Origin: Imperialibacter roseus
GTDB lineage: Bacteria > Bacteroidota > Bacteroidia > Cytophagales > Cyclobacteriaceae
NCBI RefSeq assembly: GCF_032999765.1
Contig: NZ_CP136051.1
Span: 248,001 to 312,000 of the forward strand
Direction of reading: 5' to 3'
Length of the DNA: 64,000 nt
Of this stretch, positions 3,183 through 37,665 are shown one piece after another; position 1 is the stretch's first letter; the number at the start of each line of letters is the position of its first letter. Made by a program: the position numbers and the translations under genes. The notes beneath the pieces are model-generated. The model saw only the letters and a program-made list of their open reading frames with translations, did not search any database and had not been told where the DNA came from.

Positions 3183-3749
3183 ATGGATAGCTCCGAAAGG
3201 GTAAAAACCATCGCAATTTCAGAATTAGGCCATGCGAAGCTGGTGAAAATTAGTAAACGATGCAGCCTTCCGTTGGGTCGCTCGGCTGAGTTCTGCATCT
3301 TCTATGTTGATAAACTTAAGATCGATCCAACTAACCAAAGTGAAGGTAATCCGACGGATGCCATTGAAGCACTAAGGAATGATTTGGTGGGGTTCATAAG
3401 AACCCAGGAGAAGACCAAGCTTAATCCTATGTTAGAAAATCTATCCATGGCATCTCAGAAGATTTCAAGTGTAATGGATAACCTGCCATCGAAGGGTGAT
3501 TTCCATTTTCTCAAAGATCAAGCTGACTGGTTGAAAAAAAGCAGTGAAAGTCAGCTTAAGGAAATACGAAACTTCCAAAGCGACCTCAAATGGATTCGAA
3601 CCACTAGAATTGACCTGGCCAATAACCTTATTCGGGTATTTAGAATTTATCTGTCCGAACGGGAAAAACTCAATAGTATGCTCGATTCAAAGAAAATTAA
3701 AGAACTGGAAGAGCAGACGATAAAAAAGATGACCGAATTCGCCAGATGA
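3183..3749 (+). CDS. BfmA/BtgA-like mobilisation accessory protein
   Basis: 188 residues. The N-terminal 45 residues look like a ribbon-helix-helix DNA-binding segment (VKTIAISELGHAKLVKISKR), followed by long coiled-coil helices and a basic C-terminus. This is the layout of BfmA/BtgA-type proteins, which bind oriT and help the relaxase form the relaxosome in Bacteroidota mobilisable elements. Its stop overlaps the relaxase start by 4 bp (ATGA), so the two are translationally coupled. Family assignment rests on layout and context rather than a strong single motif. Confidence 0.6.
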   Translation: MDSSERVKTIAISELGHAKLVKISKRCSLPLGRSAEFCIFYVDKLKIDPTNQSEGNPTDAIEALRNDLVGFIRTQEKTKLNPMLENLSMASQKISSVMDNLPSKGDFHFLKDQADWLKKSSESQLKEIRNFQSDLKWIRTTRIDLANNLIRVFRIYLSEREKLNSMLDSKKIKELEEQTIKKMTEFAR

Positions 3750-4573: not shown

Positions 4574-4605
4574 ACTGTAATATCGACTAATATGCTGAAA
4601 TACTG

Positions 4606-4729
4606 TATTACGACATATTACAAAATATTACCCAGGCACTTTAGTTCAGTTTTGGGTAAAGGTGATTGACATCTGAAATATTCATTAATACCCAGAAATA
4701 TTATATTACTCAATATTACAAAATATTAC
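4606..4729 (+). repeat. Two arrays of 10-bp-phased TATTAC repeats upstream of parA
   Basis: Two 26-bp arrays (4606-4631 and 4704-4729) each contain three TATTAC boxes exactly 10 bp apart, with AAAA as the second spacer in both. A reverse box GTAATA lies at 4577-4582. Ten-bp phasing places the boxes on one face of the helix, as expected for cooperative binding by a ribbon-helix-helix partner protein. The second array ends one base before the parA ATG, so it probably serves as centromere-like site and operator together. Confidence 0.6.
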
Positions 4730-4730
4730 C

Positions 4731-5549
4731 ATGACCAAAGTAATCAGTATTCTCAACGAAAAGGGTGGGGTTGGCAAGACTACCACCACGTCTTCACTTG
4801 GTAGCATCCTTGCCAGCAGAGGATTTAAAGTGGTGATGCTGGATTTGGATCCGCAGGCGGATTTGACCCTGGCGTGCAAAAAAGCAGGCGAGGCCACCAA
4901 TATTTATGACATTCTGTTTGAGACTAAAAAAGTAACTGGCATCAATGTCAATCCTAACCTGGTGCTCATACCTGGGTCAAATAAAATGGCGGCGACCAAG
5001 TTCAAGACGAAGATTCAGGATGAGTATTCCCTGATGCACCCAATCACTGTTTTAAGGAGCGTTTTCAAATCGCTACTTGTGCGGGACGATATTCACTTCG
5101 TACTGATTGATTGCCCACCCAATCTTGACCTGGTGGTTCAAAATGCGCTGGCCATGAGCACGCACGTTCTCATTCCGATTGTCGCTCATTCTTTTGCCGT
5201 GAATGGAGCGTGGTCGATTGTTGATTTCATTAAGAAGTTCCGTGAATCAGATATCAATCCAGAATTAGCTCCGGTGGGTATTTTGATGAATAGCTTTGAT
5301 CAGAGATTGAATATTCACCGAGGCGTCTACGAACTGTGCCTGGAGAGTTTTCCAAATCTGCTATTCGATACAAAGATCAGGGTCAATACTAAGCTGGCTG
5401 AGAACACCCATTTGGGTCAGGAGATAGTCACATACGCCAAGGCGCTGTCGGAGGGGAAGTTCCCGAATAAATTTAGTGGGTTCGAAGACTTTACTCAATT
5501 GGCTGACGAACTTCTCGACAGACTGGGGTATAAAGAATTGGCGATATGA
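4731..5549 (+). CDS. parA: ParA-family partition ATPase
   Basis: 272 residues. The deviant Walker A motif KGGVGKTT lies at residues 11-18, followed by Walker A' (MLDLDPQADLT) and Walker B (FVLIDCPPNLD). This is the ParA/Soj ATPase that positions plasmid or chromosomal cargo on the nucleoid. There is no N-terminal HTH, so it belongs to the short type that relies on a separate small DNA-binding partner. The stop overlaps the next gene by 4 bp. The phased TATTAC boxes abut its start codon and probably mediate autoregulation. Confidence 0.85.
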   Translation: MTKVISILNEKGGVGKTTTTSSLGSILASRGFKVVMLDLDPQADLTLACKKAGEATNIYDILFETKKVTGINVNPNLVLIPGSNKMAATKFKTKIQDEYSLMHPITVLRSVFKSLLVRDDIHFVLIDCPPNLDLVVQNALAMSTHVLIPIVAHSFAVNGAWSIVDFIKKFRESDINPELAPVGILMNSFDQRLNIHRGVYELCLESFPNLLFDTKIRVNTKLAENTHLGQEIVTYAKALSEGKFPNKFSGFEDFTQLADELLDRLGYKELAI

Positions 5550-5884
5550 GCAAGGATAAATTCAAGGCACTATCTGCTCGGGGAGGAGGCCTGTTTGATG
5601 AAAAGATAACAGAGCTCAGGAATGACAGGAAGCCAGATATTGATGAGGCCAAAGTGCATACCTTCAGGATCAAGCAATCCAACATTGAGAAGCTCAAAAA
5701 CTATGTTCACCAACAGAAGTTTGTAGGCTTTCCCTATATATCTCAGGGCGAAGTAATTGATGAAGCACTGGAGAGGTTTTTTGAGAGTGTTGGACAGATA
5801 AGTGAAAGGCCTGAGGAGTTGAAGAAAAAGGAAAGAAAACGTACGGGTCGAAGGAAGAAGGAGCAGAGTGACTTTGAGCTTTAA
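5546..5884 (+). CDS. Small ParA partner, probable DNA-binding protein
   Basis: 112 residues, overlapping parA by 4 bp. Residues about 38-90 (VHTFRIKQSNIEKLKNYV, then ISQGEVIDEALERFFE) fit a ribbon-helix-helix fold, and the last 25 residues are strongly basic. Short ParA ATPases normally pair with such a centromere-binding protein, and the phased TATTAC sites upstream are a plausible target. There is no sequence match to classical ParB. Confidence 0.6.
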   Translation: MSKDKFKALSARGGGLFDEKITELRNDRKPDIDEAKVHTFRIKQSNIEKLKNYVHQQKFVGFPYISQGEVIDEALERFFESVGQISERPEELKKKERKRTGRRKKEQSDFEL

Positions 5885-5961
5885 TATTTTGGTTGAAAGG
5901 TTAAATACTAATTTCGGAGTTTTATTGTAGATCGAATCGAGAAATTAGATACTTTCAATAC

Positions 5962-6459
5962 ATGAACGACATAAAATACCACAACTTGACGAGACTTGCC
6001 ATCTTCAGTGTATTCGTTCTGTTCTTTTTTGGGTGTTCTCTGGAAGCCAGCAAAGAGAAAAATACCGATAACAGGGAAGGTACGGTTGTCAGGCAAGACA
6101 CTTCCCAGCAGACGAGAAGAGATCTTTGTGAAGTAGCTTCATTCCTGGAAATGGAAAATTTTTCAGGCGACTTTTATGTCTACGGCAGCAACATCCAATT
6201 TACATTGGGTACTGATTCTATACTTATTCCTAAGGAGATAATTGTGCTGCTTCAAGGAAAAAACATTGAGTATGTTGCACGGAGCAGAGGTATTATTGAA
6301 TTTGGATTTAACCCGACCGGAAACGGTGAAAGTGGATTATTATTAAATACAGAGCCGAATAACCCTGCAATTGATTCAGGAAATGTTAGACCTGAATTTA
6401 CTAAACTGTCGAATGAGACATGCCTGGGCTTGAATTGGTACTACCAAACCTTTCGATAG
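5962..6459 (+). CDS. Hypothetical lipoprotein
   Basis: 165 residues with a lipoprotein signal: basic start, hydrophobic stretch (about residues 11-24) and lipobox ending FFGC. The mature part begins with a charged linker and continues as a beta-rich domain with two cysteines. I do not recognise the family. It is monocistronic in appearance, between the partition genes and the AbiE-like pair, and may be cargo of the mobile backbone. Confidence 0.6.
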   Translation: MNDIKYHNLTRLAIFSVFVLFFFGCSLEASKEKNTDNREGTVVRQDTSQQTRRDLCEVASFLEMENFSGDFYVYGSNIQFTLGTDSILIPKEIIVLLQGKNIEYVARSRGIIEFGFNPTGNGESGLLLNTEPNNPAIDSGNVRPEFTKLSNETCLGLNWYYQTFR

Positions 6460-6627
6460 GGTGACTTAGCCAAGTCAAAGTAGACTTGATCCCATTCGGT
6501 TACTGACAACAACCCTTAAGCTACCTTACACACTTTTCGGAATCGAATCTCCAGTATTTCATAACGAACTTTGTCGCTTTTGTTAAGTTTTTAATATTAA
6601 AAACTTATATTATATGTCTTACGTTTA

Positions 6628-6635
6628 TATCTTTG
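6628..6635 (+). promoter_or_regulatory. Bacteroidota -7 promoter element for the AbiE-like operon
   Basis: TATCTTTG matches the Bacteroidota -7 consensus TAnnTTTG. Transcription would begin a few bases downstream, i.e. past the GTG at 6637, which supports the ATG at 6709 as the real start of the next gene. No clear -33 TTG at normal spacing was found. Confidence 0.45.
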
Positions 6636-6708
6636 TGTGGTAGTAGATGCTTCTATAGAAGTATCGAAACCTTCTGTTAGAGCAATTCCTATATCAAGTA
6701 CTTTACCT

Positions 6709-7437
6709 ATGCCAACAGCAGCATCTTTAGTAAGGAAGCAAATAGATAGGCTAGATCCCGGGTCAGTTTTTGGCTACACTGAGTTTAGTTCGAAGGATAT
6801 TGACCAAAATGCTTTGGCCATGACCTTAAGTCGGCTAAGCAACGAAGGAGTGATTGTTCGTTTGGCGAAGGGGAAGTATTACAAGCCTGAGGAATCTAGA
6901 TTTGGGAGACTGAGGCCCAGGGAATCGGCCGTTGTTGAGGCAATGACCACTCGCAATGGCAAGAAGTTTGGCTATTTAACTGGCCTGTCGGTGTACAACC
7001 GGCTTGGACTTACCTCTCAGGTATCCAATGTCCTGGAAATTGCCACCAGCAAGCAACTTCCTTCACGAGATATTGAAGGATATAAAATCAAATACCAGAT
7101 AAGGAATCTGCCCTTCAAAGAGATGGACATTCCTTTGCTACAGCTGCTCGATGCTGTAAAGGATATCAAGCGTATACCCGATGCATCTCCCAATGATGTT
7201 TTAAAAGTGCTTATGAAGAGAGTTAGTGACTTGTCAGAGAAAGAACAGAGCAGAATGGTATCATTAACGTCTTATTACAATCCAGCTACCAGAGCTTTGG
7301 TTGGCGCAATTTTGGAGCAAATAGGATCTGGCGTTTCGTTGGAAAGCATTAGCGCATCCTTGAACGGACTGACAAGGTACAACATCGGGATTGACGTACA
7401 GCTTCTGCCCACTAAGGCTAACTGGAGCATTGTATGA
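6709..7437 (+). CDS. AbiEi-type antitoxin/transcriptional regulator (DUF6088-like)
   Basis: 242 residues from the ATG at 6709. The N-terminal winged HTH includes FGYTEFSSKDIDQNALAMTL and LSRLSNEGVIVRLAKGKYY, the typical start of AbiEi/DUF6088 antitoxins, followed by a larger helical domain. The gene overlaps the nucleotidyltransferase toxin by 4 bp (ATGA). In type IV AbiE systems this protein represses the operon and counteracts the toxin without binding it. A longer reading from GTG 6637 is possible but would start upstream of the probable transcription start. Confidence 0.7.
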   Translation: MPTAASLVRKQIDRLDPGSVFGYTEFSSKDIDQNALAMTLSRLSNEGVIVRLAKGKYYKPEESRFGRLRPRESAVVEAMTTRNGKKFGYLTGLSVYNRLGLTSQVSNVLEIATSKQLPSRDIEGYKIKYQIRNLPFKEMDIPLLQLLDAVKDIKRIPDASPNDVLKVLMKRVSDLSEKEQSRMVSLTSYYNPATRALVGAILEQIGSGVSLESISASLNGLTRYNIGIDVQLLPTKANWSIV

Positions 7438-8414
7438 CTTTTCACCTTTCGCCAGAATTTGAGCCGGCTGTTCGTGCCGCCGCAGCGCACTTCAAACAAA
7501 GGGACATTTTCATTGAAAAAGACTATTGGGTCACTTTCGTTTTGAAAGCATTGTCGCAATCGGAATTTCGGGACAAAGTTATTTTCAAAGGAGGTACCTC
7601 ACTTTCGAAAGCCTTTAATTGTATTGACCGGTTTTCTGAGGACATCGATTTGGCCATCTTAAATACAGAAGGGTTGTCTGATAATCGATTGAAGAAGTTA
7701 ATCAAGGAGGTTGCGGAAAAAATTACTGAAGCCTTGAGCTACTTCGAACATCCGAATGAGGAGAAAAGAGGAAGGAACCGGAGAACTTTTTACAGCTATC
7801 AAAAAGTCATTTTTGACGATGATGGAACCAGTCCGGTAAAAAGCGATATCCAGCTTGAGATCAACTGTTTCACCAATCCAGTACCTTTTGAGGAGAAACA
7901 ATTAGATAGCTATCTGTCACAATTTTTAGCGCTCAGGGGAGAAAATCAACTCATTAAGGAGTTTCAGCTTGATCGCTTTTCAGTGAACGTGCTCAGGAGG
8001 GAGAGAACCTTCTTTGAGAAGCTGATGTCTTTGGTTCGACTTTCCTATGAAGGTCCTGAAAAGTTGAGAGAGAAAATTCGACATTTTTACGACCTGCATA
8101 AGCTGCTGCAGCTTGATGACCTAAGAGGGCAATTGTTGATCCCTGAAAACCATGAGTTGATCACACAGGTGCTAAACGATGACTATGTGAACAGTACCTT
8201 TGCAGGTGCCTGGATTGTAAAGCCCATGGCCGAGTCGCCTCTGCTTGGCAACATAAGCGAGATTTGGAGTACTTTGGAAGAGACTTATCAAAGGGAGCTT
8301 TCTCGCCTGGTTTGGTCTACTGAGGCCTTGCCGACAACCGACCACATAGTTGCCATGCTGAAAGAAATATCAGCTTTTATGGAGGGCTATAGCTTCCAAT
8401 CGGTTAATTCATAG
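7434..8414 (+). CDS. AbiEii-type nucleotidyltransferase toxin
   Basis: 326 residues. The nucleotidyltransferase signature is clear: FKGGTSLSKAF, then FSEDIDLAI about 12 residues on, giving the GS/GT motif and the DxD metal ligands at about residues 52-76. AbiEii/MenT-like enzymes transfer nucleotides to RNA targets and stall growth, often as phage-abortive-infection effectors. The toxin is translationally coupled to its antitoxin. All key residues are present, so the pair looks functional. Confidence 0.8.
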   Translation: MTFHLSPEFEPAVRAAAAHFKQRDIFIEKDYWVTFVLKALSQSEFRDKVIFKGGTSLSKAFNCIDRFSEDIDLAILNTEGLSDNRLKKLIKEVAEKITEALSYFEHPNEEKRGRNRRTFYSYQKVIFDDDGTSPVKSDIQLEINCFTNPVPFEEKQLDSYLSQFLALRGENQLIKEFQLDRFSVNVLRRERTFFEKLMSLVRLSYEGPEKLREKIRHFYDLHKLLQLDDLRGQLLIPENHELITQVLNDDYVNSTFAGAWIVKPMAESPLLGNISEIWSTLEETYQRELSRLVWSTEALPTTDHIVAMLKEISAFMEGYSFQSVNS

Positions 8415-12319: not shown

Positions 12320-12688
12320 ATGAGAGTATTCGAGCCAGTTAGGAACGCACAGTTGAAAGAAGAGCTTGTTGAAAAGCTCTTCAGTGAGAATAGTGTGTGG
12401 CTGTGGTCTTATGACTTGAAAAAGGCTGACAAAGCCAACGTGCCAGATAGGCTTCTTATTGAAAAGTACCTTCTTCTGGGTAGTGTTGAAGACTGGGAAA
12501 AGCTCAAACAGGTTTATGATGAAAAGGTGCTCTATAGCCATTGGATCGAAAACATCGTGCCTTCAGAGCGATATCACCAGAAGCAAATTGAAATGGCCAG
12601 GTTCTTTTTCGATATGGAAAATCCGGAACAATTTTTAGTAGAGGCCAGAAAGCAACATTTAGCCAATGTTATTGCGAGCAGTCCCTGA
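12320..12688 (+). CDS. DUF6922-like antitoxin partner of AbiEii
   Basis: 122 residues from the ATG at 12320; a start at 12266 would add 18 unsupported residues. The pattern WLWSYDLKKAD, then RLLIEKYLLLGSVEDWEKL, then a late RYHQKQIEMARFFF fits DUF6922-like small proteins that precede AbiEii-type nucleotidyltransferases in Bacteroidota. It overlaps the toxin gene by 23 bp, consistent with a tightly coupled antitoxin-toxin pair. The antitoxin role is inferred from position. Confidence 0.6.
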   Translation: MRVFEPVRNAQLKEELVEKLFSENSVWLWSYDLKKADKANVPDRLLIEKYLLLGSVEDWEKLKQVYDEKVLYSHWIENIVPSERYHQKQIEMARFFFDMENPEQFLVEARKQHLANVIASSP

Positions 12689-13412
12689 AACCACCGAGAG
12701 AGTACTTTCGAAACTTCAAACCTATAAAGAACTCGACCAGTATTATCTGGTTGGAGGCACAGCACTGGCTCTGCTGACTAATCACCGGCTCAGCGAGGAC
12801 ATAGACCTTTTCTATTACAACCAGTATCCCGGTGAAAAGCTGCCACTGCCCAGGATCAATGCCATCATGGAAAATATCAAGAGAGACTTTTCGGATGTTG
12901 AGTACATGTTCCGGGAAGGGGATACTTTTGTGCAGCTTCGTGTAGATGGAGTAAAAGTCGATTTTTTCTCTGAAAACAATTTTCACAGAAGTAAGAACTA
13001 CACCGACTTAGGCTCGATTCGGTTGCCCGACAAAAAATCTCTCGCTGGCATGAAGCTCATTGCCGTCACGTTACGTACGGCATCCAGGGATTTGTATGAT
13101 TTGTATTGCCTTCGACAGGAGTTTAATGAAATAGACTTTTTCAACGGCTTTTCTTCTATTGTTAGCTCCAAGTACTGCGGATCAAAGTCTCAAAAAATCA
13201 AACTATTTAAGTCTACAGTCCACAATAAGCTGAAAAACCAACAATGGCTTGAGAAGAACTATGACGAGAAAAGTTTCGTAGAGCTGAGGCCAAAGTATGA
13301 TGTCTCAGCAGTGGACATTTTTAATGCTTTTAAAAGCTTTGATCTTGAGTTGGACTTTGATGAGCTTTTAAAAAAGCAGAAAAAAGATAGGGAGAAGGGG
13401 AAATTGATCTAG
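12666..13412 (+). CDS. AbiEii-like nucleotidyltransferase toxin, second copy
   Basis: 248 residues. The nucleotidyltransferase signature is YLVGGTALALLTNHRLSEDI with DLFYY, at about residues 27-52, followed by a KVDFF strand that supplies the third acidic residue. This compact version differs from the 326-residue toxin at 7434 and belongs to another AbiEii branch. It overlaps the DUF6922-like gene. The active-site residues are all present. Confidence 0.75.
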   Translation: MLLRAVPETTERVLSKLQTYKELDQYYLVGGTALALLTNHRLSEDIDLFYYNQYPGEKLPLPRINAIMENIKRDFSDVEYMFREGDTFVQLRVDGVKVDFFSENNFHRSKNYTDLGSIRLPDKKSLAGMKLIAVTLRTASRDLYDLYCLRQEFNEIDFFNGFSSIVSSKYCGSKSQKIKLFKSTVHNKLKNQQWLEKNYDEKSFVELRPKYDVSAVDIFNAFKSFDLELDFDELLKKQKKDREKGKLI

Positions 13413-13508
13413 CGCTTGTTTGGACTCGAATGTCCTGCCTTTGCTTTTCGTCTACAGTTCAAGTGAGTAGTGAGCCTTCACGTCTGGGTAGTGGAAAGGA
13501 TGTCAGTC

Positions 13509-13527
13509 ACGCCTATGCTGCCAACTT
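13509..13527 (+). repeat. 19-bp exact match to the relaxase gene
   Basis: ACGCCTATGCTGCCAACTT here is identical to 4047-4065 inside the relaxase gene, in the same relative frame (AYAAN). The surroundings read SGKDVSHAYAANLLNYL, loosely like the relaxase segment. It is probably a scrap of a second, lost mobilisation gene next to the fic gene. Confidence 0.3.
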
Positions 13528-13529
13528 GC

Positions 13530-14267
13530 TTAACTATCTAGCGATGCATCATGGATTCTTTCCAAAAGATTATCAAGAAAGTAGTTAGCATAAGGGCTAT
13601 AGTCCTTTGTCTCATAGAAGGCAAGCAGAGAGTTTCTATACTTTAGTATGTCTTCGTCTCTGGTTGAGAAAATAGGAATCAGATCAGCTTGCATTAGCAC
13701 AATGCTTTCAATGAGGCGGGCCGTCCTTTTATTTCCATCAATAAAGGGCTGAATCCTGGCCAAATTACAATGAACGTAGATGGCCTTTTCTAAAGGATTA
13801 GGGGCCGTCACTAAAGAAAAGAAAACTTCGTTCAACCCTAGGCTGATTTCTTGCGGGCTTTTGGGTGGCAGGTAGCTGGTTCCCGTTATCTGAACCGGCC
13901 TGTTGCGCAAAGTCCCTTTTTGTGAATCATCCACCAGATCGGCAATAAGGCTGGAATGGAGAGAGAACACGCTGGCTTCATCAATCTTTCTTCTGTGCCC
14001 GGCGTGAATTTCTGCCACAATGGAGTTAAAGGTATTATGCAGGTTCTTCAGCATCCTGGCATCCTCGTAACGTTTGGGGGAAGTAACACCATCGAGCAGC
14101 AGCGATTCTGTTTCCACATAGGTGTAGGTATTACCTTCGATCTTACCGCTGTAATAAGACCAGGCGACAGCGAGCTTTCTGATGTCGTTGGAATTGAGTG
14201 AGGATAATTTTGCGTTGGCGTTACCCAAAACAAACTCACTTTTCAGCTTTTGCTCCTTGTTGAACAT
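13530..14267 (-). CDS. Fic-domain protein with catalytic His replaced by Gln
   Basis: 245 residues. Fic fold features are present: the N-terminal inhibitory motif SGKIEG (S40 to G45) and an LRNRPVQITGTSYLPP hairpin. The Fic core reads QPFIDGNKRTAR, where the first residue is Q173 (codon CAG) instead of the catalytic histidine of HPFxxGNxR. The rest of the anion hole and the arginines are intact. Canonical Fic enzymes AMPylate proteins and use that His as base, so this copy is either inactive or uses another chemistry. A hipA relic lies just upstream of its start. Confidence 0.75.
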   Translation of the reverse strand: MFNKEQKLKSEFVLGNANAKLSSLNSNDIRKLAVAWSYYSGKIEGNTYTYVETESLLLDGVTSPKRYEDARMLKNLHNTFNSIVAEIHAGHRRKIDEASVFSLHSSLIADLVDDSQKGTLRNRPVQITGTSYLPPKSPQEISLGLNEVFFSLVTAPNPLEKAIYVHCNLARIQPFIDGNKRTARLIESIVLMQADLIPIFSTRDEDILKYRNSLLAFYETKDYSPYANYFLDNLLERIHDASLDS

Positions 14268-14480
14268 TTGGTCTTGTTTACTTTACTTTCACTCTGGGTG
14301 AATGCCCCATAAATGTGGTTCCTCTGTAAATATAGGGGTTTAAAAACCGCTCATAGCTACCTAAATATACAAAAAGCAATGCATTCAACCCGGTTTTCAT
14401 TTATCAACAAAGCCACCCTAAGCAGCAACAGAGGCTGGAAGGGTCGGTGCATCTGCAGTGCAGCAAATGATAACAAAATG

Positions 14481-14558
14481 CTAGATGCCCAGCTCCCTAC
14501 CTTTTGATTGGCCTTTGACCATCGTCTTTAGCCTCTCTTCAATTCTGAATTAGATGTG
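14481..14558 (-). pseudogene. Relic of a hipA 3' end
   Basis: Read on the minus strand, this gives FRIEERLKTMVKGQSKGREL then GI and a stop. It matches the C-terminus of the intact HipA at 17182-18498 (SRIEERLKRLATGQSKGQEL), with an in-frame stop just upstream. No more of the gene is visible, so only about 25 codons of an older hipA copy remain. Confidence 0.65.
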
Positions 14559-14741
14559 AGCAACATTGGTGCTTTAATTGAATATAACACAGCTGGTAGC
14601 GAATTTCCGGACAATTTATTTCTCTCTAAACTATCTGAAAGACATTTCATGGTACTTAATGGCGTTGATTGAATGACTTAAGTATTTGCTTTTATTAAAA
14701 TATAAGATATATTTAGTATAGATTACGAAAAATATTCAGCT

Positions 14742-16568
14742 ATGTGGAACAAAGACATTACCTTGAAAATTATTGTATTTGGCTTCTTATTTTCTATCGT
14801 TTTAGATGCCAAATCTCAGGAATCGACGAGAAAACTCTACGACGCCCTCTCTAAAAACACAACTCTAAATACCAAACAGCAAAACGCCCTTGCGAAAATC
14901 AAAACTAGACTCGGCTTCAATAGCTATGACCTAGTTAAGATGCGTCACATTGATATGTCCAAAAGGACGGAAAAAATGGAGTTTAGGCTTCCAGGCACCA
15001 ATGAAGCAATTTTGTTCACTCCTGACAGGGTAGAATTTGGGGAAAGTGGCGAAATTATCTGGCACGGCCACAGCGAGGAAGGATTTAGCGAAATCAACTT
15101 GATTTTATATGATGGTGTTTATCGGGGGCAAATCTTCACCGATAGCCGAGTATTTGAGATTTACACATTGGATGAGAATATCCAGGCTATTGCAGAATTT
15201 GACCAGTCTACTCTTGAAGGAAAATTTTGTAGCACACTAGAAGCTGGGGAAGGTTCGCCCAGCAATGATAAACCCGAGTTACCGGGCGGTGGTTCAGAAG
15301 ACGGAAGGATTGTATCCTGTAATTTACGAATACAATTGTTAGCATTGTATACCCCCGCTGCTCTTGCCGCTGATCCGTCAATCGTACAAACCATTATTTC
15401 CGCTATGAGCCAATATTCTAATGTAGTCTATTCAAGTGGAATGTCCTCACTTGCCATTCCCACCCTCAAAGCGAGCAATATCGTTCAATATAATGTTGTA
15501 GAAACGCCTCAAATAGACAACAATTTGATAAACCTTAGAAATGATGCTGCAATTGTAACACTACGGAATCAACGAAATGCGGATATCGTTGTACTATTTG
15601 TCAATGGTAACTATACAGGAGTTACAGGAATTTCTTACGAAGGTCCTGATGCTGCACAAGCTTATGCTGTGGTGGAAATCCCTGAAGCAACTACTGATTA
15701 TGTATTTACTCACGAGATGGGACATCTCTTCGGGGCAAGGCATCAGAGGTGCGACATAGCCAATACAACTAATTGTGTCAACACTATCAGCGGCTATCGG
15801 CATGGATACAACTTTCAATATGGACTGTTTAACACCTACAAAAGACGGACTGTGATGCATGAATATTATGAAGGGTATACAAGAATTGGAAGATATTCAA
15901 ATCCAGATATTCAATGGAATGGAAATGCCACTGGAACTTCAGCTCATGAAGACAATGCAAGACAAATTGATGAACAGGGCTTGACAGTAGCATCTTTTCG
16001 GCTTGGTCAGGACGTCGCATGCTATGTTGATGGCCCAACAAACATTTACAGTCCTGGCAACTACTCATGGGAGGCCGTGGTGAGTTGCGGGCAATCCCCC
16101 TATACCTACGAGTGGCGATATAGCACTAACGGGACTACTTTTGGTTCGGTATTGAGTACTTCTGCCATCTACACCAGGCCCGTGAATTATTCGGAAAACT
16201 TCTATTTACGCCTGAGGGTAGGCTCAAACGATGGCACGGAATCTATTAGTATACAAACAGTATATGCTAATGTAGGTGGATACTATAGAACATCAAGTGA
16301 AAGCTCCGGTACTAGAGATATTGAATTATTCCCAAATCCCGCTGGCGACTTTAGCGATTTAGTATTTAGCCTTAGTAAAGAGGCGGTTGTTGAAATAGTC
16401 TTGACAGACTTAAGTGGCAAGACGATCAAAAAAGTCGGAGATGGTTCTTATCTGTCCGGAAATCATAAAGTGAGGGTTAGCACAAGGGAATTAAATAACG
16501 GCATATATTTGTTGATATTCAATAACGGAGAATCACGACTCACAAGGAAACTGATTGTTTCAAAATAA
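14742..16568 (+). CDS. Secreted zinc metalloprotease with T9SS sorting domain
   Basis: 608 residues. A signal peptide (about residues 1-27) precedes a propeptide-like region and a metzincin-type protease domain with HEMGHLFGARH at about residue 323, supplying three zinc histidines, and a later MHE that may be the Met-turn. Residues about 440-515 are a beta-sandwich linker. The last 80 residues (ELFPNPAGD start, GIYLLIF near the end, basic tail) are a type A T9SS C-terminal sorting domain. The protein should be exported across the outer membrane by T9SS. A lipoprotein gene starts 10 bp after the stop. Confidence 0.8.
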   Translation: MWNKDITLKIIVFGFLFSIVLDAKSQESTRKLYDALSKNTTLNTKQQNALAKIKTRLGFNSYDLVKMRHIDMSKRTEKMEFRLPGTNEAILFTPDRVEFGESGEIIWHGHSEEGFSEINLILYDGVYRGQIFTDSRVFEIYTLDENIQAIAEFDQSTLEGKFCSTLEAGEGSPSNDKPELPGGGSEDGRIVSCNLRIQLLALYTPAALAADPSIVQTIISAMSQYSNVVYSSGMSSLAIPTLKASNIVQYNVVETPQIDNNLINLRNDAAIVTLRNQRNADIVVLFVNGNYTGVTGISYEGPDAAQAYAVVEIPEATTDYVFTHEMGHLFGARHQRCDIANTTNCVNTISGYRHGYNFQYGLFNTYKRRTVMHEYYEGYTRIGRYSNPDIQWNGNATGTSAHEDNARQIDEQGLTVASFRLGQDVACYVDGPTNIYSPGNYSWEAVVSCGQSPYTYEWRYSTNGTTFGSVLSTSAIYTRPVNYSENFYLRLRVGSNDGTESISIQTVYANVGGYYRTSSESSGTRDIELFPNPAGDFSDLVFSLSKEAVVEIVLTDLSGKTIKKVGDGSYLSGNHKVRVSTRELNNGIYLLIFNNGESRLTRKLIVSK

Positions 16569-16578
16569 ATTTACAGCT

Positions 16579-17136
16579 ATGAAAAATATTTCTATTTCTT
16601 TATTTGCTTTGACCTTGGTGGCATGTGGACAGAGCGACGACGCAATCTCACCCAATTCTTCTGGAGAAGTTGAGTATTATCTAAACGGTGTAAATCAGAA
16701 AACCGCTAATGTCTATTTCGAGTTGAACAGCTCCCCAGACTCCAAATTCTGCGACTTTGATAGTTACCTTTTTCGAATAGATAATTATGAACGTAAAGTC
16801 AACGATAATATTCCTACATATGAAAGTTTCTACTTTGATAAATTGACCCTTGACCCTGGTAAAAGAGTGCTTGGAATAGTCGGTTGCAATAAATCTCTAA
16901 ACCCAGGAGTATCTTTTTTTTCAAAGTTTTCTGACGATCTTCTAGCTGCAACTTATGATATTAGTCAAGAAGAACTGGAGAATAATTGGATTGCCATCGA
17001 TGAAATCGATGAGGACACTAAAACGGTTTCAGGACGGTTTAGTTTGAGCTTCATTATGAATTGGGGGCACGAAGAGAATGCTATTCCGGATACTATCCGA
17101 ATCACGAATGGTAGTTTTAATTTGACTCTTGATTGA
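16579..17136 (+). CDS. Hypothetical lipoprotein behind the metalloprotease
   Basis: 185 residues from ATG 16579, chosen because it begins the signal MKNISISLFALTLVACG with lipobox cysteine at about residue 16. The mature part is beta-rich with two further cysteines. It follows the metalloprotease by 10 bp, so the two are probably co-transcribed; an inhibitor or surface partner role is possible but unproven. Confidence 0.6.
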   Translation: MKNISISLFALTLVACGQSDDAISPNSSGEVEYYLNGVNQKTANVYFELNSSPDSKFCDFDSYLFRIDNYERKVNDNIPTYESFYFDKLTLDPGKRVLGIVGCNKSLNPGVSFFSKFSDDLLAATYDISQEELENNWIAIDEIDEDTKTVSGRFSLSFIMNWGHEENAIPDTIRITNGSFNLTLD

Positions 17137-17181
17137 TTTTCATTTATGAAAATGGATGAGAAATCAATGGAGAAAGAACGG

Positions 17182-18498
17182 CTAGATGTCCAGTTCTTGG
17201 CCTTTTGACTGGCCCGTAGCAAGCCTCTTTAGCCGTTCCTCTATTCTGGATTGGATGAGCCCGACAAAGTCCTGATTAACCTGGCTTGCCCTGGCATAGT
17301 CTGGCCAGCGGGAAACGACTTCTGCTACCTGATCGATGATCGCTTCCGGCCGCATGATCGAATTCTTCTTTCCTTCAGAAATCAGATCCTTTCTGGTAAT
17401 GCCGGTTTTCTTTCCATTCACAGCCATGTTGCTATTTACCCAGGGATTTCCAGGATCATAACTATAGCAAACGTCATAGGCGGGTGCCGCTCTCCATTCT
17501 TTGTTCTGATCAAGCAGAAAACTGAAGTTTTTGGTGTGGTCGTCGCAGTTAACGCCGAGCACATTGAAAACCATTTGCCGATAGAGCTGCTCCCTGTCTG
17601 GGTAGGGTAGCTTCAGGTACCTGGCGGTTTCAAACAAATGAGCGTAGGTGTGGCTGCTCACATCTTCGTAGTCAAAATGACGAATTCCACACAAGGTGTG
17701 AATGTGCTGCTTGCTGCCATGCTGCCGATCAAACCGGGCAGTCATAAAGTGGCCACGTCCATTTTCCTCCATCAACCGGCAATCCTGCATCTTAACACCG
17801 GCATCTTTAGCCATTTGAGAATAAGCGTACTCGATGCGGCCAAAGCCGGCCGAATCCCCCAGGTGATTGGTGCCAGCGCCAACATCGAGCTTGATGAGCC
17901 AATGTTTAAATTCTGGGCCATGGTCCAGCTGGCCAGACCGTATTTCTCCGGTGGCCTGATTCCAGGCGATCACCGCTTTTGCCCTGGCTCCACCAGCTGA
18001 GGTGCCTATGCTCAGGATGTCTTGAAATCCTTCGGCTCTGTCTGGCTCCAGGTGGGTAGTAAGTTTACTGGCCTGCTTGACGCCGAAGGCGGCAAGCTGC
18101 TCCAGCTCATCGATAGAAATGCGAGAACGCTTTTCCTGTACCTCCCTGGCGGGGTGATATTCGATAGCACCCATGCCACGAACACCAATATAGGCCAGCC
18201 TGTCTAGGGGAGTAAGATCAGCAAAGCTGACATCCTTATTTTTGAAATACGAATTCATGAGCCCTTCACCGAACCGGTCTGGCAGGGAATCTGCAAAAAC
18301 ACCGGGAAGGCCCTTGAAGGAAGCAAAGGGAAGGCCGGGAAATGAATAGAATGTTGGACTAGCTTTCAAATGAATGGGGGATATTTCAACCCCCATCATC
18401 CTGAAATTATCTTCGTACCTAAACCTGGCTGAATTTGTGGTTTGATCCCAAACCAGGAAGCCCACATCCTGGCCCCATATTTTAACCTTTAGTGCCAT
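17182..18498 (-). CDS. hipA: HipA-family serine/threonine kinase toxin
   Basis: 438 residues. It has the N-terminal coupling domain (AFADSLPDRFGE-like GLPGVFADSLPDRFGEG), a glycine-rich nucleotide segment (GTSAGGARAKA at about 170) and the kinase core CDDHTKNFSFL at about residue 317, followed by APAYDV. HipA kinases phosphorylate translation factors or tRNA synthetases and induce dormancy. It overlaps the HipB gene by 17 bp, with the antitoxin first. All catalytic residues are present. Confidence 0.8.
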   Translation of the reverse strand: MALKVKIWGQDVGFLVWDQTTNSARFRYEDNFRMMGVEISPIHLKASPTFYSFPGLPFASFKGLPGVFADSLPDRFGEGLMNSYFKNKDVSFADLTPLDRLAYIGVRGMGAIEYHPAREVQEKRSRISIDELEQLAAFGVKQASKLTTHLEPDRAEGFQDILSIGTSAGGARAKAVIAWNQATGEIRSGQLDHGPEFKHWLIKLDVGAGTNHLGDSAGFGRIEYAYSQMAKDAGVKMQDCRLMEENGRGHFMTARFDRQHGSKQHIHTLCGIRHFDYEDVSSHTYAHLFETARYLKLPYPDREQLYRQMVFNVLGVNCDDHTKNFSFLLDQNKEWRAAPAYDVCYSYDPGNPWVNSNMAVNGKKTGITRKDLISEGKKNSIMRPEAIIDQVAEVVSRWPDYARASQVNQDFVGLIQSRIEERLKRLATGQSKGQELDI

Positions 18499-20695: not shown

Positions 20696-21157
20696 TTAGA
20701 GACCTCTCGTCTTTTCTGCAATCCGTAATTCACAATAATGACTACGGGCATACATTTGCTGATCAGTATACTCTGGCGATTCGATTTCCCCTTCGTATTC
20801 TTCCGGAATCAGACTGTTGAACTCGGTCAATACGATTTGCATCTCATCCGAGAGTGCTTTTTCTTCATTTGCGTGGTCGTCAAGAGAGTCTTTAGTGGTG
20901 CGGTCAATGTCTATCGCTTTTTTAGTTTTCAAATAAAGCTTCCAGAAACGAAGCTGTTTTAGCCTTATTGCTGGAGGCTCAAGCGTTAGGTCATTCTCAT
21001 TCGCCCGATTCTGACTAATTTCTTCATCAACCAACCGTTTGATCGTTAAAATTTCAGCCCGCTGTGTTAAAGGCGAATTAGAGTCTTGCGGCCGCTGGTA
21101 GTTGGTGATAATCCGCACCGCCCATGCTGTCACAGAAGCAAAAAACAAAGCGTCCAT
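20696..21157 (-). CDS. Hypothetical protein with WAVRIITNYQR N-terminus
   Basis: 153 residues. The N-terminal 35 residues (SVTAWAVRIITNYQR, then SPLTQRAE) match the start of a 57-residue protein encoded at 32028-32201. The rest is helical and charged, with no domain I recognise. The IS inserted 12 bp upstream of its start codon, so its own promoter is probably displaced. It lies beside the dnaE relic. Confidence 0.45.
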   Translation of the reverse strand: MDALFFASVTAWAVRIITNYQRPQDSNSPLTQRAEILTIKRLVDEEISQNRANENDLTLEPPAIRLKQLRFWKLYLKTKKAIDIDRTTKDSLDDHANEEKALSDEMQIVLTEFNSLIPEEYEGEIESPEYTDQQMYARSHYCELRIAEKTRGL

Positions 21158-32027: not shown

Positions 32028-32201
32028 TTATGCTTTTCCTATTGGAGGCTGCTTGCCAGCTGCAGAAGTCTTTACTTCTTTTTTCTTTATCGCTTCAGCT
32101 CGCTGCGTCAACGCAGCGTTGTAGTCGGGCCATCGCTGGTAGTTGGTAATAATCCGCACCGCCCAGGTTGATGTGTTTTTGATGGTAGGGGTTGTTTTCA
32201 C
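32028..32201 (-). CDS. Small protein with WAVRIITNYQR motif
   Basis: 57 residues from a GTG start at 32201 to TAA at 32028. Residues 12-38 (TWAVRIITNYQRWPDYNAAL, then TQRAEA) match the N-terminus of the 153-residue protein at 20696-21157 at protein and DNA level. The tail is basic. The motif has no domain name I know. Low expression signals; it may be a truncated paralogue. Confidence 0.4.
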   Translation of the reverse strand: MKTTPTIKNTSTWAVRIITNYQRWPDYNAALTQRAEAIKKKEVKTSAAGKQPPIGKA

Positions 32202-32292: not shown

Positions 32293-33051
32293 TCAAATCT
32301 CCAAAACCATATCTCTTCGAAAGGCCGTATGTTCGTTGGCCACCGTATAGCCAAGCTGGTTGGTGTAAAATGTTGTCTTCCCTATTGTCAATGGCTCCTG
32401 GTTGTGGTGAGTGTGGCCGTGAATCCAGTGATCGACTTTGTGTTTCTCAGTCAACCATAGCAAGTCTACATGGAAGGCCTCGTTCAAAGACATTGAGTCA
32501 GGATAGTCACAATAGTCCGGAGGGTAGGGGGCATGGTGACTGACTACGACCGTTTGGCCGTCAAATAGCTTGGCCAATTCCGTTTCGAGAAATGCCAGGC
32601 ACAGGGCATGACATTCATTGTACTCATGAGTAGAGAACCTTTCTCCTTGATATTTACAAACATGAAAATCATTCAACTTGTAATCAATGAATTTGTGATT
32701 TGTAATTTGAGTGAACAAGGTGCTAAACAGGAGCCGAACCTTGCCGATCACAACGACTTGATTGTTCAGATAAAAAACTTTATCCCGAGCAGCCATATTT
32801 AGCGAGGGGAATAGGCCATCAATATCGAAGCTATAATTATAAAATTCGTGGTTACCTGGAACGATGTAGACTTTGTCGAATTGACTTGACAACAAGTCAA
32901 AGAACGGTGAACTGAGGTGCAGATCGGATAGATAGGTGATATCTCCGGCTAAAATCAAAATCTCAGCTGATGGGATAATTGGGTTCTTGTATATCCAGGC
33001 TGCATTGGCTGGCATTTCCAGGTGTAAATCTGAGGCGTATTGGATTTTCAA
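32293..33051 (-). CDS. Calcineurin-like metallophosphoesterase
   Basis: 252 residues with all five signature blocks: DLHLE (residue 8), AGDITYLSD, GNHEFY, SHHAPYP and GHTHHN. These bind a dinuclear metal centre that hydrolyses phosphomono- or diesters. No signal peptide, so cytoplasmic. The short stand-alone form occurs often in accessory regions; the substrate cannot be inferred. The gene looks monocistronic. Confidence 0.8.
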   Translation of the reverse strand: MKIQYASDLHLEMPANAAWIYKNPIIPSAEILILAGDITYLSDLHLSSPFFDLLSSQFDKVYIVPGNHEFYNYSFDIDGLFPSLNMAARDKVFYLNNQVVVIGKVRLLFSTLFTQITNHKFIDYKLNDFHVCKYQGERFSTHEYNECHALCLAFLETELAKLFDGQTVVVSHHAPYPPDYCDYPDSMSLNEAFHVDLLWLTEKHKVDHWIHGHTHHNQEPLTIGKTTFYTNQLGYTVANEHTAFRRDMVLEI

Positions 33052-33906: not shown

Positions 33907-34143
33907 TTAAAATTCGTTTTTGCTTATTCTTTTCAAAAGGTCTTCTTTGATGTCTCCCTGGTGTTCTTGCTTCCACTGAATCAGAACATTGTGGATCACG
34001 GTCGAAATAGGCAAGTCGTAATTAGCTGCAACGCTTTTGAAAAATGAGTGCAGCGACTCAGTAATATTCACCGTGCGCTTCCGTTCATCTTTTTCCTCGA
34101 ACTCCCTCAGGAAGGCTTTAAAGTCCTGTTTCGTGATGTCCAT
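33907..34143 (-). CDS. Small putative DNA-binding protein (RHH-like), first gene of the C-box operon
   Basis: 78 residues. After an acidic start, RKRTVNITESLHSFFKSVAA then LPISTVIHNVLIQWKQEH resembles a ribbon-helix-helix or short HTH protein of mobile elements. It starts 48 bp from the C-box palindrome and is divergent from the controller gene, so it may be regulated by the same operator. Confidence 0.5.
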   Translation of the reverse strand: MDITKQDFKAFLREFEEKDERKRTVNITESLHSFFKSVAANYDLPISTVIHNVLIQWKQEHQGDIKEDLLKRISKNEF

Positions 34144-34191
34144 ATCTCCACCTTTTTGAAGGGCCTATTATAAACAATTTATTTTATAACG

Positions 34192-34217
34192 TGACTATAG
34201 TCTGTAGACTATAGTCA
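34192..34217. promoter_or_regulatory. C-box type operator
   Basis: Half-sites TGACTATAGTCT and AGACTATAGTCA flank a central GT. Each half contains the self-complementary decamer GACTATAGTC, and the two decamers are 14 bp apart with TGTA between. This is the form of the C-boxes bound by controller proteins of type II restriction-modification systems. It sits 21 bp before the controller start codon. Confidence 0.75.
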
Positions 34218-34238
34218 GAGCTCGGCTTAGTTTTCATC

Positions 34239-34463
34239 ATGAATGAGAACCAAGTGGCTTTGATTTTTGGAAAAAGACTTAAAGAATTAAGACTTGAAAA
34301 ATCATTGTCTCAGGAAAAACTCGCACATCATGCTGGATTACATCGTACTTATATCTCTTTGTTGGAGAAGGGTAAAAGACAGCCTTCATTGTCCTCTGCA
34401 ATTAATTTGGCTGATGCTCTTGAGATTAAACTGTCATATTTGCTGACACCATTTTTGAATTGA
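34239..34463 (+). CDS. Controller-type (C protein) XRE regulator
   Basis: 74 residues made almost only of a Cro/C1 HTH. The segment LEKSLSQEKLAHHAGLHRTY then ISLLEKGKRQPSL is characteristic of restriction-modification controller proteins (RTYIS-LE-G-R). The length fits. A C-box lies right upstream, so it should autoregulate as those proteins do. No methyltransferase or endonuclease gene follows: the next 730 bp are non-coding. It may instead control the divergent three-gene operon. Confidence 0.7.
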   Translation: MNENQVALIFGKRLKELRLEKSLSQEKLAHHAGLHRTYISLLEKGKRQPSLSSAINLADALEIKLSYLLTPFLN

Positions 34464-35195
34464 AATTGGGCTGATAGCGTTCGCATACCAACCCTTTCTT
34501 CCAATCCTTAGGAGATAGGTTTGATACATTCCCTGGCTGGCCCAGTCGATAAGATGTTAAGGGAATATGCGTAAATTAGAAAGTGGTGTTTTTACTTGGG
34601 AACTAAATTCCCGTCGTTCATATAGTTTCCCCTTTTTATTCCATTCTCAATTTTGCATATTCGGCACCTGTGCTAATCGCATTAATTAGATTTACAGCAG
34701 TTCTTGAGGTAGCACCGGAGTATTTTGTTGTTGAGGACTCGAAAAAACTGGTGTGATTGAAATAGAAACTTTTTCGTTGATCTGCATTGTGTTAATGGGG
34801 AGATGCTGATTTACCCACACCCAGTAAAGACCTTTAAGGCAGATAGAAGCCAAGGATTTTGCGGCCTATTCCGACACCGATAATTTAAAAATCTTGGCGA
34901 TGAAACCCGAGAGCAAAGGGTTAAAAAAAAGTGCAGTTAGGAGAAACTAACCTTCCGGTCAGGTGTTGACCGTGGCAAGTCTGGCTACTTCTGCCACGAA
35001 AGATATGTTGCACAGGTACTTGACCTGGTGATGAAAAATGGCTGCGGCTATTTATATCAATTTCTTTACTTTCTTTTAGGTTTCGGTTGAGCCTAAAAGT
35101 GCTAAATAGAGGCCAAAGCAAAGACTAATTTGATAGAACGAAGCTTTTTGAGAGAGAATTGGTGCCGGAGAAGACATCCAATACCTCATTGTGAA
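34464..35195. other. Non-coding gap where R-M genes would be expected
   Basis: About 730 bp without a credible gene. A short open stretch around 34834-34950 reads QIEAKDFAAYSDTDNLKILA and then stops after about 40 codons; it looks like a relic. No methyltransferase or nuclease motif is visible in any frame. Confidence 0.4.
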
Positions 35196-37607
35196 TCAAA
35201 ACTTATAACTATAGCCCACTCTCACCACCTGGGTTTCGTAGTAGTCGGTAGCCAGGTACTTAAACCCATCGCCCTGAATTTCCCGCTTTACTCTCATGGT
35301 GTTGAGCAAGTCAGTGGCGTTGGCATAAAGCTCACCTCTTCCTTTCTGCATTGATTTCTTTACACCCAGATCCAGCGAAAAGCGGGTGCCAATGGTTCCC
35401 TGGGGGATGATGTCAGGGGCCAGGTAAGTGCCGCTTAGCTGAATATCCACTTGCTTTGCCAGGTGAAAGACGCTATTGAGCTTTACGTTTCCTGAAAGGA
35501 TTTCCTGCCGGGCAGCTGTGAACATGTTCACTTCGGGATAAAGGTTGGTTACCGTAAAGGCCTCGATGATGTTCTGGTAGCCATTCACACTAAAGTTGAT
35601 GGTGGCCCATTTGTCCAGGTTTTGAGAAAGCAGCACTTCAAAACCCGTATTGTAGCTTTTGCCGGCATTTTGAAAGATGTTGTAGATAAGTACGCTGCCA
35701 GGCAGAATGCTTCCGATGCGGGTGATGGTGGCGTCCATTTGCTTATGGTAAACGGATGAGTACAAATAGCCCGTGTTCCAGCTGCCCTTATGGCCCAGCT
35801 CATAGTTGGTAGTAAACTGTGGCCGAAGCCCCGGGTTACCCACTTTGATGATCTCTGCATCGTCATACTTGGGAAAGATCCTGATGTCGACCTCGTTGGG
35901 CCTGTCAACACGGCGGTTGTAAAAGACCGACAGTTTGTTGTTGTCGTTAAGCTTGTAGGCCAGGCGCACGTTAGGAAAGGGCTGAGTATAGTTGTACCCG
36001 CTGGTTTTGTATGTGGGGTGATCCGGGTTTACCTTGTAGTCAATCTTCACATACTCCATCCGCACACCCGCTTCCACTTCATACTTTTCGTTTTCGAAGA
36101 CGTAGTTACCATACACGGCTGGAATTAGCTCCCCGTAATTGGCCCAGCCACCTGCTGCCGAGTCGATTGGGGAGTTGAGTCCCGGAAAGAACTGCATGTT
36201 GGTTGGGATCGCCCGTCTGCGAAACTTAAGACCTGTTTCAAAGCGGCCGTATTGCAATGGCTGCGTGTAGTCGAGGTTGAAATCGGCCACATGTTCGTCG
36301 GAGATGAGCTTGAAGGCATCCCTTCCAGTTGACTCCGGCAGAATATTGTCGAAGAAGTACTGCTCATTTTCCCGGTGGTAGGTGTAGTTGAAACCAATAT
36401 TGAGCAAGCGGCCTGGCTGTTTGTACTTGTGCTGGTAGGCAGCAGTAGCCATCACGGTTGTTTTTAGCTCATCCTCCAGAAATTGCCACAGCCTGTAACG
36501 GTTGCTGAGGTCTCCTTCGAAAAAGGGCTCATCGCCACGATCCAGTATTTTTTCGCTGCTGAAAAAGCCAGAGACAGTGAGGCTGTTGGCATCGTCGATA
36601 CTCCAGTCCATGCCGGTTTTGCCTGAAAAGAGGTTGGTGTCCCTGTTACGCTTTGTTTGGTTGTAGATCACCGTGCCATCGTCATAGGTCCTGGTGACAA
36701 ACTCATTTTTATTGAGCGTATGGGTATAGAGGTTATCGGCTTGCAAAAAGGTATTGACCTTATTTTTCTTGTAGTTAAGAGATAGTGACGGATTGATTTT
36801 GGGTGTTGCCTGGTATTGAGGGCGAATGGTGGGCAGGTTTTCGTTTTTCACCCAAAGTGCCCCCAGGCCTGATGAAAGGCCGACTTTTCCATTGAAGCCT
36901 TCCTGCTTGTCTTTTTTGTAAATGATGTTGATGATGCCTGCGTTGCCGTTGGCGTCGTACTTCGAGGAGGGATTGTTGATGATTTCAATTTTCTCGATGG
37001 CCGATGCCGGCAGGTTATCCAGTCCCGATTGAGAGCCAAAGCCTGTCAGGGCAGTTTGCTTGCCATCGATGAGCACTGCCACCCGATCATTGCCCCGCAA
37101 GAGCACCTTACCATCTTGTACAGTCACTCCGGGTAGGTTTTGCATGGCCTGGAGCACCGAGCCACCCGCCTGGCTAACGTTGTCGGCCACGGCGAAGGTC
37201 TTTTTGTCGAGCGATTCACTTACCGCATCTTGCTGACCGGTGACAACCACTTCGCTTAACGTTTCTATGTCCTCCTCCAAGGTGATGGGCGCTACCTCTA
37301 AAAACCTGCTCAGGCTACCTACAAAGAGCGGTTGCTTTACAGGCTTGTAACCAACATAAGAGGCTTCCAGTACATACTTTCCTGGTTTCACTCCCGTGAG
37401 CACAAATAACCCTTCGTCATTGGTGATGGTGCCTGACACAAACGCACTATCTGCCTCAGTTTTCAACACGACGCTAACATAAGCCAGTGCCGATTGTGAC
37501 TTGTCGTCTTTTATCGATCCTGATATTGTGATGGCGCTGTTTTGGGCTGACAGCAATATTGGAACAAAGAATGAAATACTAAGGAAAAGGCTTTTTATGT
37601 GCTTCAT
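35196..37607 (-). CDS. TonB-dependent receptor family protein with outer-membrane barrel
   Basis: 803 residues: signal peptide (MKHIKSLFLSISFFVPILLS), carboxypeptidase-like regulatory domain (about residues 27-110, ISGSIKDDKSQSALAYVSV), plug (VLQAMQNLPGVTVQDGKVLL, GNAGIINIIYKK) and OMP_b-brl_3-type barrel ending YSYKF. No STN domain. It lies downstream of the regulator-kinase operon with its own upstream copy of the 44-bp element (37666-37709), so it is a likely target of that response regulator. Substrate unknown. Confidence 0.8.
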   Translation of the reverse strand: MKHIKSLFLSISFFVPILLSAQNSAITISGSIKDDKSQSALAYVSVVLKTEADSAFVSGTITNDEGLFVLTGVKPGKYVLEASYVGYKPVKQPLFVGSLSRFLEVAPITLEEDIETLSEVVVTGQQDAVSESLDKKTFAVADNVSQAGGSVLQAMQNLPGVTVQDGKVLLRGNDRVAVLIDGKQTALTGFGSQSGLDNLPASAIEKIEIINNPSSKYDANGNAGIINIIYKKDKQEGFNGKVGLSSGLGALWVKNENLPTIRPQYQATPKINPSLSLNYKKNKVNTFLQADNLYTHTLNKNEFVTRTYDDGTVIYNQTKRNRDTNLFSGKTGMDWSIDDANSLTVSGFFSSEKILDRGDEPFFEGDLSNRYRLWQFLEDELKTTVMATAAYQHKYKQPGRLLNIGFNYTYHRENEQYFFDNILPESTGRDAFKLISDEHVADFNLDYTQPLQYGRFETGLKFRRRAIPTNMQFFPGLNSPIDSAAGGWANYGELIPAVYGNYVFENEKYEVEAGVRMEYVKIDYKVNPDHPTYKTSGYNYTQPFPNVRLAYKLNDNNKLSVFYNRRVDRPNEVDIRIFPKYDDAEIIKVGNPGLRPQFTTNYELGHKGSWNTGYLYSSVYHKQMDATITRIGSILPGSVLIYNIFQNAGKSYNTGFEVLLSQNLDKWATINFSVNGYQNIIEAFTVTNLYPEVNMFTAARQEILSGNVKLNSVFHLAKQVDIQLSGTYLAPDIIPQGTIGTRFSLDLGVKKSMQKGRGELYANATDLLNTMRVKREIQGDGFKYLATDYYETQVVRVGYSYKF

Positions 37608-37665
37608 TTTACTACAGGGCGTTTTTTATTAATTGTTTTCATCAAGATGCCAGAAGTTTCCGCTG

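Follow-up and report, generated by a model that had tools for sequence, protein, structure and literature searches.

What does a controller protein of the restriction-modification (R-M) type control when no R-M gene stands beside it? C proteins have been studied as timers of restriction enzymes, and a sequence-only reading of the DNA examined here, a stretch of 64,000 nucleotides from Imperialibacter roseus (hereafter the window), had drawn attention to a 74-residue C-protein-like regulator whose operator also faces three small genes. The gene (34239-34463, forward strand) is a single gene encoding a 74-aa HTH protein, and its assignment was borne out: the PADLOC model Control_protein matched it with an E-value of 8.9e-19, and the nearest solved proteins were C.BclI (2.7e-12) and C.AhdI (3.9e-11). 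C.Esp1396I was also matched (3.9e-6; residues 14-63 on 16-65 of an 82-residue chain), and within this ungapped range R36, T37, Y38, R47 and S53 of the window protein are the counterparts of C.Esp1396I R35, T36, Y37, R46 and S52. The one-residue numbering shift rests on the length of native C.Esp1396I, which we take to be 79 residues. In that protein R35, T36 and R46 contact bases, and Y37 and S52 the backbone (PMC4041747); these DNA-contact residues are present in the window protein. The PADLOC models CapH and RmrA, HTH regulators of other defence systems that likewise stand beside non-R-M genes, also matched, but in its operator and its nearest solved relatives the window protein goes with the C proteins of R-M systems. 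By sequence comparison, the product of 34239-34463 is identified as a C protein.

A two-operator C-box lies close upstream of the gene at 34193-34216, consisting of a left operator (OL, 34193-34202; distal to C and proximal to a divergent gene for a probable RHH-type protein) and a right operator (OR, 34207-34216; proximal to C). Both are perfect GACTATAGTC decamers set 14 bp apart from start to start with the spacer TGTA, in agreement with the near-perfect box and 14-bp distance described earlier; its placement directly upstream of C also held, with a gap to the ATG of 22 bp in place of the 21 bp given. C-controlled type II R-M systems (C.AhdI, C.BclI, C.Esp1396I, C.PvuII and C.EcoRV) likewise combine a C protein with paired GACT/AGTC operators and GT in the spacer, the half-sites being separated by AT in the window decamer and by tat in those of R-M systems. 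A search that tolerated up to three mismatches located a single C-box in the window, against 0 in 100 shuffles, and a single site in the 6.75-Mb genome. When 84,980 species genomes were scanned for exact copies, five other loci came up, one in Spirochaetia and four in betaproteobacterial records, and a C homologue adjoins the box in all five, which indicates that C-box and C protein belong together. Allowing up to two mismatches among 395 phylum genomes gave matches in three genomes besides that of the window; neither the ORF list nor tblastn showed a C homologue in any of the three, and we attribute these matches to chance because a reversed control pattern matched seven genomes. The exact C-box was absent from IMG/VR, where the C protein itself had nine relatives with 32-45% identity; a plasmid search gave two weak matches for it and one match for a betaproteobacterial C homologue.

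No methyltransferase or endonuclease adjoins the C gene and no R-M-like gene follows it, as the sequence-only reading had stated, and the roughly 730 bp described as empty (34464-35195, 732 bp) indeed contain short ORFs only, which were left out of the family scan. The next gene encodes a convergent TonB-type receptor (35196-37607). Among the best 25 of 69 and best 25 of 83 families obtained by scanning 75 of the 82 window ORFs there was one R-M-type match, to the C-terminal part of a type I methyltransferase, at 126-851 and thus 33 kb from C. The same absence recurs around the five other exact C-box loci, where 27 of 35 ORFs were scanned and no R-M family appeared among the best 25 of 30 Pfam and best 25 of 57 PADLOC families, so C genes without R-M partners occur outside Bacteroidota too. 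In one betaproteobacterial locus (L041), an ORF cut by the contig end lies behind the C gene and matches SspB (1.4e-43), which belongs to a different defence system, and the divergent genes of L039 and L040 are mutually homologous (32% over 111 aa). L038-L041 are the betaproteobacterial C homologues with an exact C-box. Within the order, a further C homologue (L030) has a GACTATAGTC operator and lies upstream of a gene that matches PDC-S41, a candidate defence family (7.9e-189), with no obvious R-M partner.

On the other side of the operator, the first gene of the divergent operon (P2; 33907-34143, reverse strand; 78 aa) gave weak single-sequence matches below cut-off to ParG (0.034) and RHH_9 (0.1), while a 13-sequence RHH profile matched ORF E73 (0.0027) and ParG (0.0041). 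Its single-sequence model (pLDDT 74) comprises four helices with an unassigned segment before the second, and no RHH structure was found among the best 50 rows of a Foldseek search with the monomer model. Judged by the profile, P2 is probably an RHH-type DNA-binding protein, so that the earlier description of three facing genes of unknown type stands for the second and third (P3 and P4) and falls for the first. P2 resembles the regulators Omega, PaaR and ParG as a small RHH DNA-binding protein with a weak ParG profile match, but differs from them in lacking an adjoining ParA gene or recognised toxin partner and in being paired with a C protein. The ParA-RHH adjacency of ParAG-type partition systems was not found; the ParA-like gene of the window lies at 4731-5549 (AAA_31; position by eye). 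One weak plasmid match to P2, in Hymenobacter and next to ParA, was set aside, and IMG/VR gave no confirmed relative of P2, P4 or the LRPV family described below.

The pairing of C with RHH is conserved. A joined query of the three facing proteins, searched in 295 family genomes, matched 14: the genome itself, 12 with an RHH homologue, and one (G605) that was dropped because it showed a single weak match over part of P3 and P4 (E 0.0017). The same-genus genome G554 gave no match. In all 12 other genomes a C homologue adjoins the RHH homologue, divergently in 11 and convergently in L075, and these RHH homologues were located without using the C sequence. The 13-sequence RHH profile matched six of 390 order genomes, namely the genome itself, the already known G581, a homologue in another family that also has a divergent C gene (L095), and three weaker matches (L096-L098) rejected for want of a C match, with ParA-like neighbours by eye. 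RHH-linked loci thus total 14, of which 13 are divergent. Genes for C-like HTH proteins turned up in 132 of 148 order genomes, but each matching genome has 1-11 of them, and by our estimate such numbers cannot explain adjacency in every case. Since 12 of 12 other family genomes and L095 pair the two genes, the arrangement is old and conserved, and the co-occurrence with C proteins envisaged by the sequence-only reading was found for the RHH gene. A review draws a comparison between C proteins and two RHH repressors, Omega and PaaR, with no pairing described in the passages concerned (PMC3874152), and Sorokin et al. 2009 are reported to have catalogued C proteins according to their motifs. In the open-licence literature we found no report of C proteins paired with RHH genes, and we regard the pairing as new with some doubt.

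These data bear on whether the locus is the remnant of a type II R-M system that lost its methyltransferase and endonuclease, leaving a relic C gene and an operator that faces unrelated genes incidentally. The R-M type of the C protein and C-box would fit such a history, as would the 732 bp without supported genes behind C and the promoter spacing shared with the R-M-linked C genes L010 and L035 (and nearly with L011), but the C gene and its promoter look intact, the lone R-M-type match among the families listed is a partial type I methyltransferase 33 kb away, and the C-RHH neighbourhood is kept in 13 other genomes. Deletion of R-M genes, one of two options originally offered, is disfavoured by the pairing in 12 of 12 other family genomes and L095, and we consider a remnant very unlikely.

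The remaining genes of the divergent set are less uniform. P3 (33560-33901, reverse strand; 113 aa) most likely starts at the ATG at 33901 rather than at the GTG at 33976, and sits where most relatives carry LRPV; its model is helical and of low confidence (pLDDT 49), too poor for a structure search. P4 (33216-33491, reverse strand; 91 aa) had no homologue in 147 other order genomes, plasmids or IMG/VR. Neither protein matched a family above cut-off, including in the search for defence families, neither is conserved among C-RHH loci, and the data searched hold no convincing relatives of either. A metallophosphoesterase gene (32293-33051, reverse strand; 252 aa; Metallophos 4.1e-13, phrog_1649 3.3e-40) begins 164 bp after P4 and may be the fourth and last gene of the set. 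Such a gene follows RHH and LRPV in L072, L073, L076 and L078, giving five of 14 loci with the window, and lies about 4 kb from the module in G561 (L084). The family occurs in nine of 60 family genomes, and eight of nine further copies showed no C, RHH or LRPV match in the fetched flanks (about 1.5 kb or less).

LRPV is a family of about 75 aa (alignment A3, 17 invariant columns) present in 10 of 12 family loci, either next to RHH or after C (L068 and L070). Two members scanned against Pfam gave no match, one had a weak match (7e-4) to a PHROG of unknown function, the profile found no credible relative among solved structures (best 0.093), and plasmids yielded no match to LRPV, P3 or P4. No LRPV remnant was detected in the window (best E 0.57), and among 395 phylum genomes LRPV was found in the genome itself only. 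In G581 (L103) a C gene faces LRPV, two small ORFs and a phosphoesterase gene, which is the layout of the window with LRPV replacing RHH.

Among the 14 RHH-linked loci, OL, chosen by eye at each, is a perfect palindrome in eight, and the OR position is so in none of the 13 other loci, two perfect decamers being found in the window only. The operator reads GACTATAGTC in four loci (window, L068, L070 and L076), GCCCTTTAGGC or one base off in five, and GAGTATACTC in two, with three singletons. The C.Esp1396I counterpart of residue 47 contacts the G of GTC (PMC4041747). Residue 47 is N in the two GAGTATACTC loci, L073 and L074, in which this G is replaced by C to give CTC, and R or K in 11 loci that keep the G (L095 by eye); in L075 it is I and the G is nevertheless kept. 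Further mismatches are that P36 and R36 both go with GACTATAGTC, and that L095 has A37 yet keeps the C contacted by T36. The match of C residues to operator bases across related loci therefore appears partial.

The predicted -7 element of the C promoter, TAGTTTTC (34228-34235, forward strand), lies 25 bp from OL and can be set against the Bacteroidota -33/-7 consensus TTTG/TANNTTTG with T at -12 (PMC6847099). In 13 of 14 loci an xANNTT motif stands exactly 25 bp from OL; the exception, L075, has TANNTT one base closer, at 24 bp. TANNTT itself is found at 25 bp in nine of 14 loci, a count reached in 0 of 2000 within-row shuffles, which leave relatedness uncontrolled, the 14 loci being related and their counts not independent. 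The 25-bp spacing is common to three of four R-M- or defence-linked C genes of the order, which precede a type II endonuclease (L010), a methyltransferase (L035) and a PDC-S41 candidate (L030); L011, also before a methyltransferase, is about one base off. Applying the Bacteroidota consensus to the -7 position places the predicted start of the C transcript at or within 1-2 nt of the ATG, which would make it leaderless, as is known for other C genes (PMC4824078). The weak -7 element of the window would fit an activated promoter.

On the RHH side the -7 element is ambiguous. The candidate in the window, TAAATTGT (34174-34181, reverse strand), lies 11 bp from OL and is less certain than its C-side counterpart; TANNTT occurs 11-13 bp from OL in 10 of 13 divergent loci, and a second conserved candidate at 20 bp in eight, the first (34181-34174) fitting better in the window. 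If TAAATTGT is used, OL spans -24 to -33 relative to RHH and -38 to -47 relative to C, OR the reverse, and the two identical decamers are symmetric about a centre that has a candidate -7 element 23.5 bp away on either side. Start codons are separated by 94-126 bp in the 13 divergent loci with the starts chosen. Those of C in L071, L077 and L078 are not ATG, and for L071 and L077 the distance was measured from where the tblastn match begins, a few bases within the gene. Scans for terminators and sigma-70 promoters gave results close to those expected by chance. An AT-rich block beside the RHH start in most loci is possibly RHH's own operator. This block and the ambiguous RHH promoter would suit an arrangement in which C regulates itself only and RHH governs its operon from an independent promoter, an alternative to which we give little credence, since 10 of 13 divergent loci have the RHH-side element 11-13 bp from OL, where a bound dimer would probably block it.

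We consider it probable that a functional C-protein switch controls a non-R-M operon at this locus. In EcoRV, the distal C site, which has high affinity, serves to activate transcription of c-res while also overlapping the promoter of the methyltransferase gene (PMC6237814), and since the window has this geometry with the RHH operon replacing the methyltransferase, the C switch appears to have been reused. Like the C-controlled type II R-M systems, the window has a C gene predicted to be leaderless and a distal site so placed that it would activate C and overlap the divergent promoter; unlike them, it holds no accompanying methyltransferase or endonuclease and its divergent gene encodes a probable RHH regulator. 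C.Kpn2I similarly represses a divergently transcribed gene, but its C-box lies inside the C gene and it is part of an R-M system (PMC6237814). The identity of C, its operator, the promoter spacing and the conserved RHH pairing are read from the sequence, whereas C binding, activation, repression and timing, and the function of the operon, are inferred, as follows. A C dimer on OL (centred near -42 from the C start and, if the nearer of the two -7 candidates is used, -28 from the RHH start) would recruit polymerase to the weak, leaderless C promoter, a positive feedback, and would block the divergent promoter of RHH. OR overlaps the -33 region of C, and its filling as C becomes more abundant would damp C transcription. 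The divergent RHH-P3-P4(-phosphoesterase) operon stands where divergent C/M systems have the methyltransferase gene. In a newly entered cell that lacks C, this operon would come on first and be switched off once C accumulates. The option that a C-protein circuit was recruited to another system is supported by the anatomy, with a timing role that is putative.

In flanking stretches of 17.6-19.9 kb read for 10 loci, the module stands near several recombination genes, some of them Tn7-like: TnsA, TniB, TniQ and a Mu-type transposase beside a ChlI-domain (comM-like) gene in L084, TnsC- and TniQ-like genes in L085 and an integrase-family gene in L089, with rve matches below the Pfam cut-off in L087 and L091. 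A PADLOC scan of 10 selected neighbour genes gave strong matches to a CBASS cyclase (L082), a protein matching Argonaute-associated models (L083), a CapP-like protein (L085), a type IIG enzyme (L087) and an E2 protein (L088), and no strong match among the selected neighbours in L086. In L087 the C gene runs toward the type IIG R-M gene.

Defence genes beside L082, L083, L087 and L088 raise the question of whether the unit itself serves in defence or resembles a toxin-antitoxin module, its RHH operon (P3, P4, LRPV or phosphoesterase) being the effector that C silences until needed. C homologues before SspB (L041) and before the PDC-S41 candidate (L030) point the same way, as do the phosphoesterase, which weakly resembles the candidate PDC-S10, and the AbiE, Fic and HipA genes of the window. 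The middle genes are unconserved, however, and no effector domain was found in P3, P4 or LRPV; we judge this reading quite unlikely.

The recombination genes bear on a further alternative, a phage-like CI/Cro immunity switch of the mobile element, with C and RHH acting as antagonists that determine its excision, transposition or copy number, their main targets being element genes elsewhere. Two small divergent DNA-binding proteins around a common operator would suit it. So would a second C gene in the same genome, which faces LRPV (G000:C1 247459-248000) beside a tyrosine integrase; it lies 34 kb from the module, its LRPV starting about 230 bp before the window. Against such a switch, the same module is found beside unrelated transposition systems and the genome has no second C-box at up to three mismatches, and we think it unlikely. 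The C-protein switch on a non-R-M operon, our preferred reading, would instead make the C-RHH unit a module carried on mobile and defence-rich DNA rather than an R-M relic.

If C and RHH form a conserved module free of R-M genes, the timer would prove to be portable and in use for other genes on mobile and defence-rich DNA, and the module highlights two uncharacterised partners, the LRPV family and the phosphoesterase. More speculatively, and with more doubt than belief on our part, C-protein circuits might serve as a general establishment timer of mobile elements, giving a pulse of RHH, small proteins and phosphoesterase in a newly entered cell before C closes the operon. On this reading the symmetric, identical decamers of the window might make a two-way switch, and the second operator could even favour the RHH side. 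Counter-points to our preferred reading, a C-protein switch on a non-R-M operon, are the unconserved P3 and P4, the ambiguous RHH -7 element, the convergent L075, the type IIG R-M gene ahead of C in L087, the 164 bp before the phosphoesterase gene and the missing LRPV in the window module.

Several observations concern the surrounding DNA. Of window positions 22-42 kb, G554 shares no more than the receptor gene (94%), 227 bp where the transposase region begins and three matches that are weak, so the region is variable. The receptor gene (35198-37625) is 94% identical in this same-genus genome while its surroundings differ, as if it alone had moved. Window positions 1-8414 together with G000:C1 246108-248000 (L100) resemble an integrative mobilisable element, with a tyrosine integrase, a C gene facing LRPV, a DUF5712 gene, AbiEi/AbiEii and a ParA-like gene with a possible RHH partner (positions by eye). 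The gene pair at 126-851 and 859-1503 (reverse strand), the first of which aligns with the C-terminal portion of a type I methyltransferase model, recurs by eye near C-RHH in L082 (13754-15125) and L088 (14066-15450). Within the window, a second AbiEii-like gene clusters with Fic-type and HipA genes at 12666-18498, a stretch rich in toxin-antitoxin and defence genes. A 72-bp direct repeat, 78% identical between copies about 11 kb apart, lies at 21053-21124 and 32094-32165, with the phosphoesterase gene ending about 130 bp from the latter copy.
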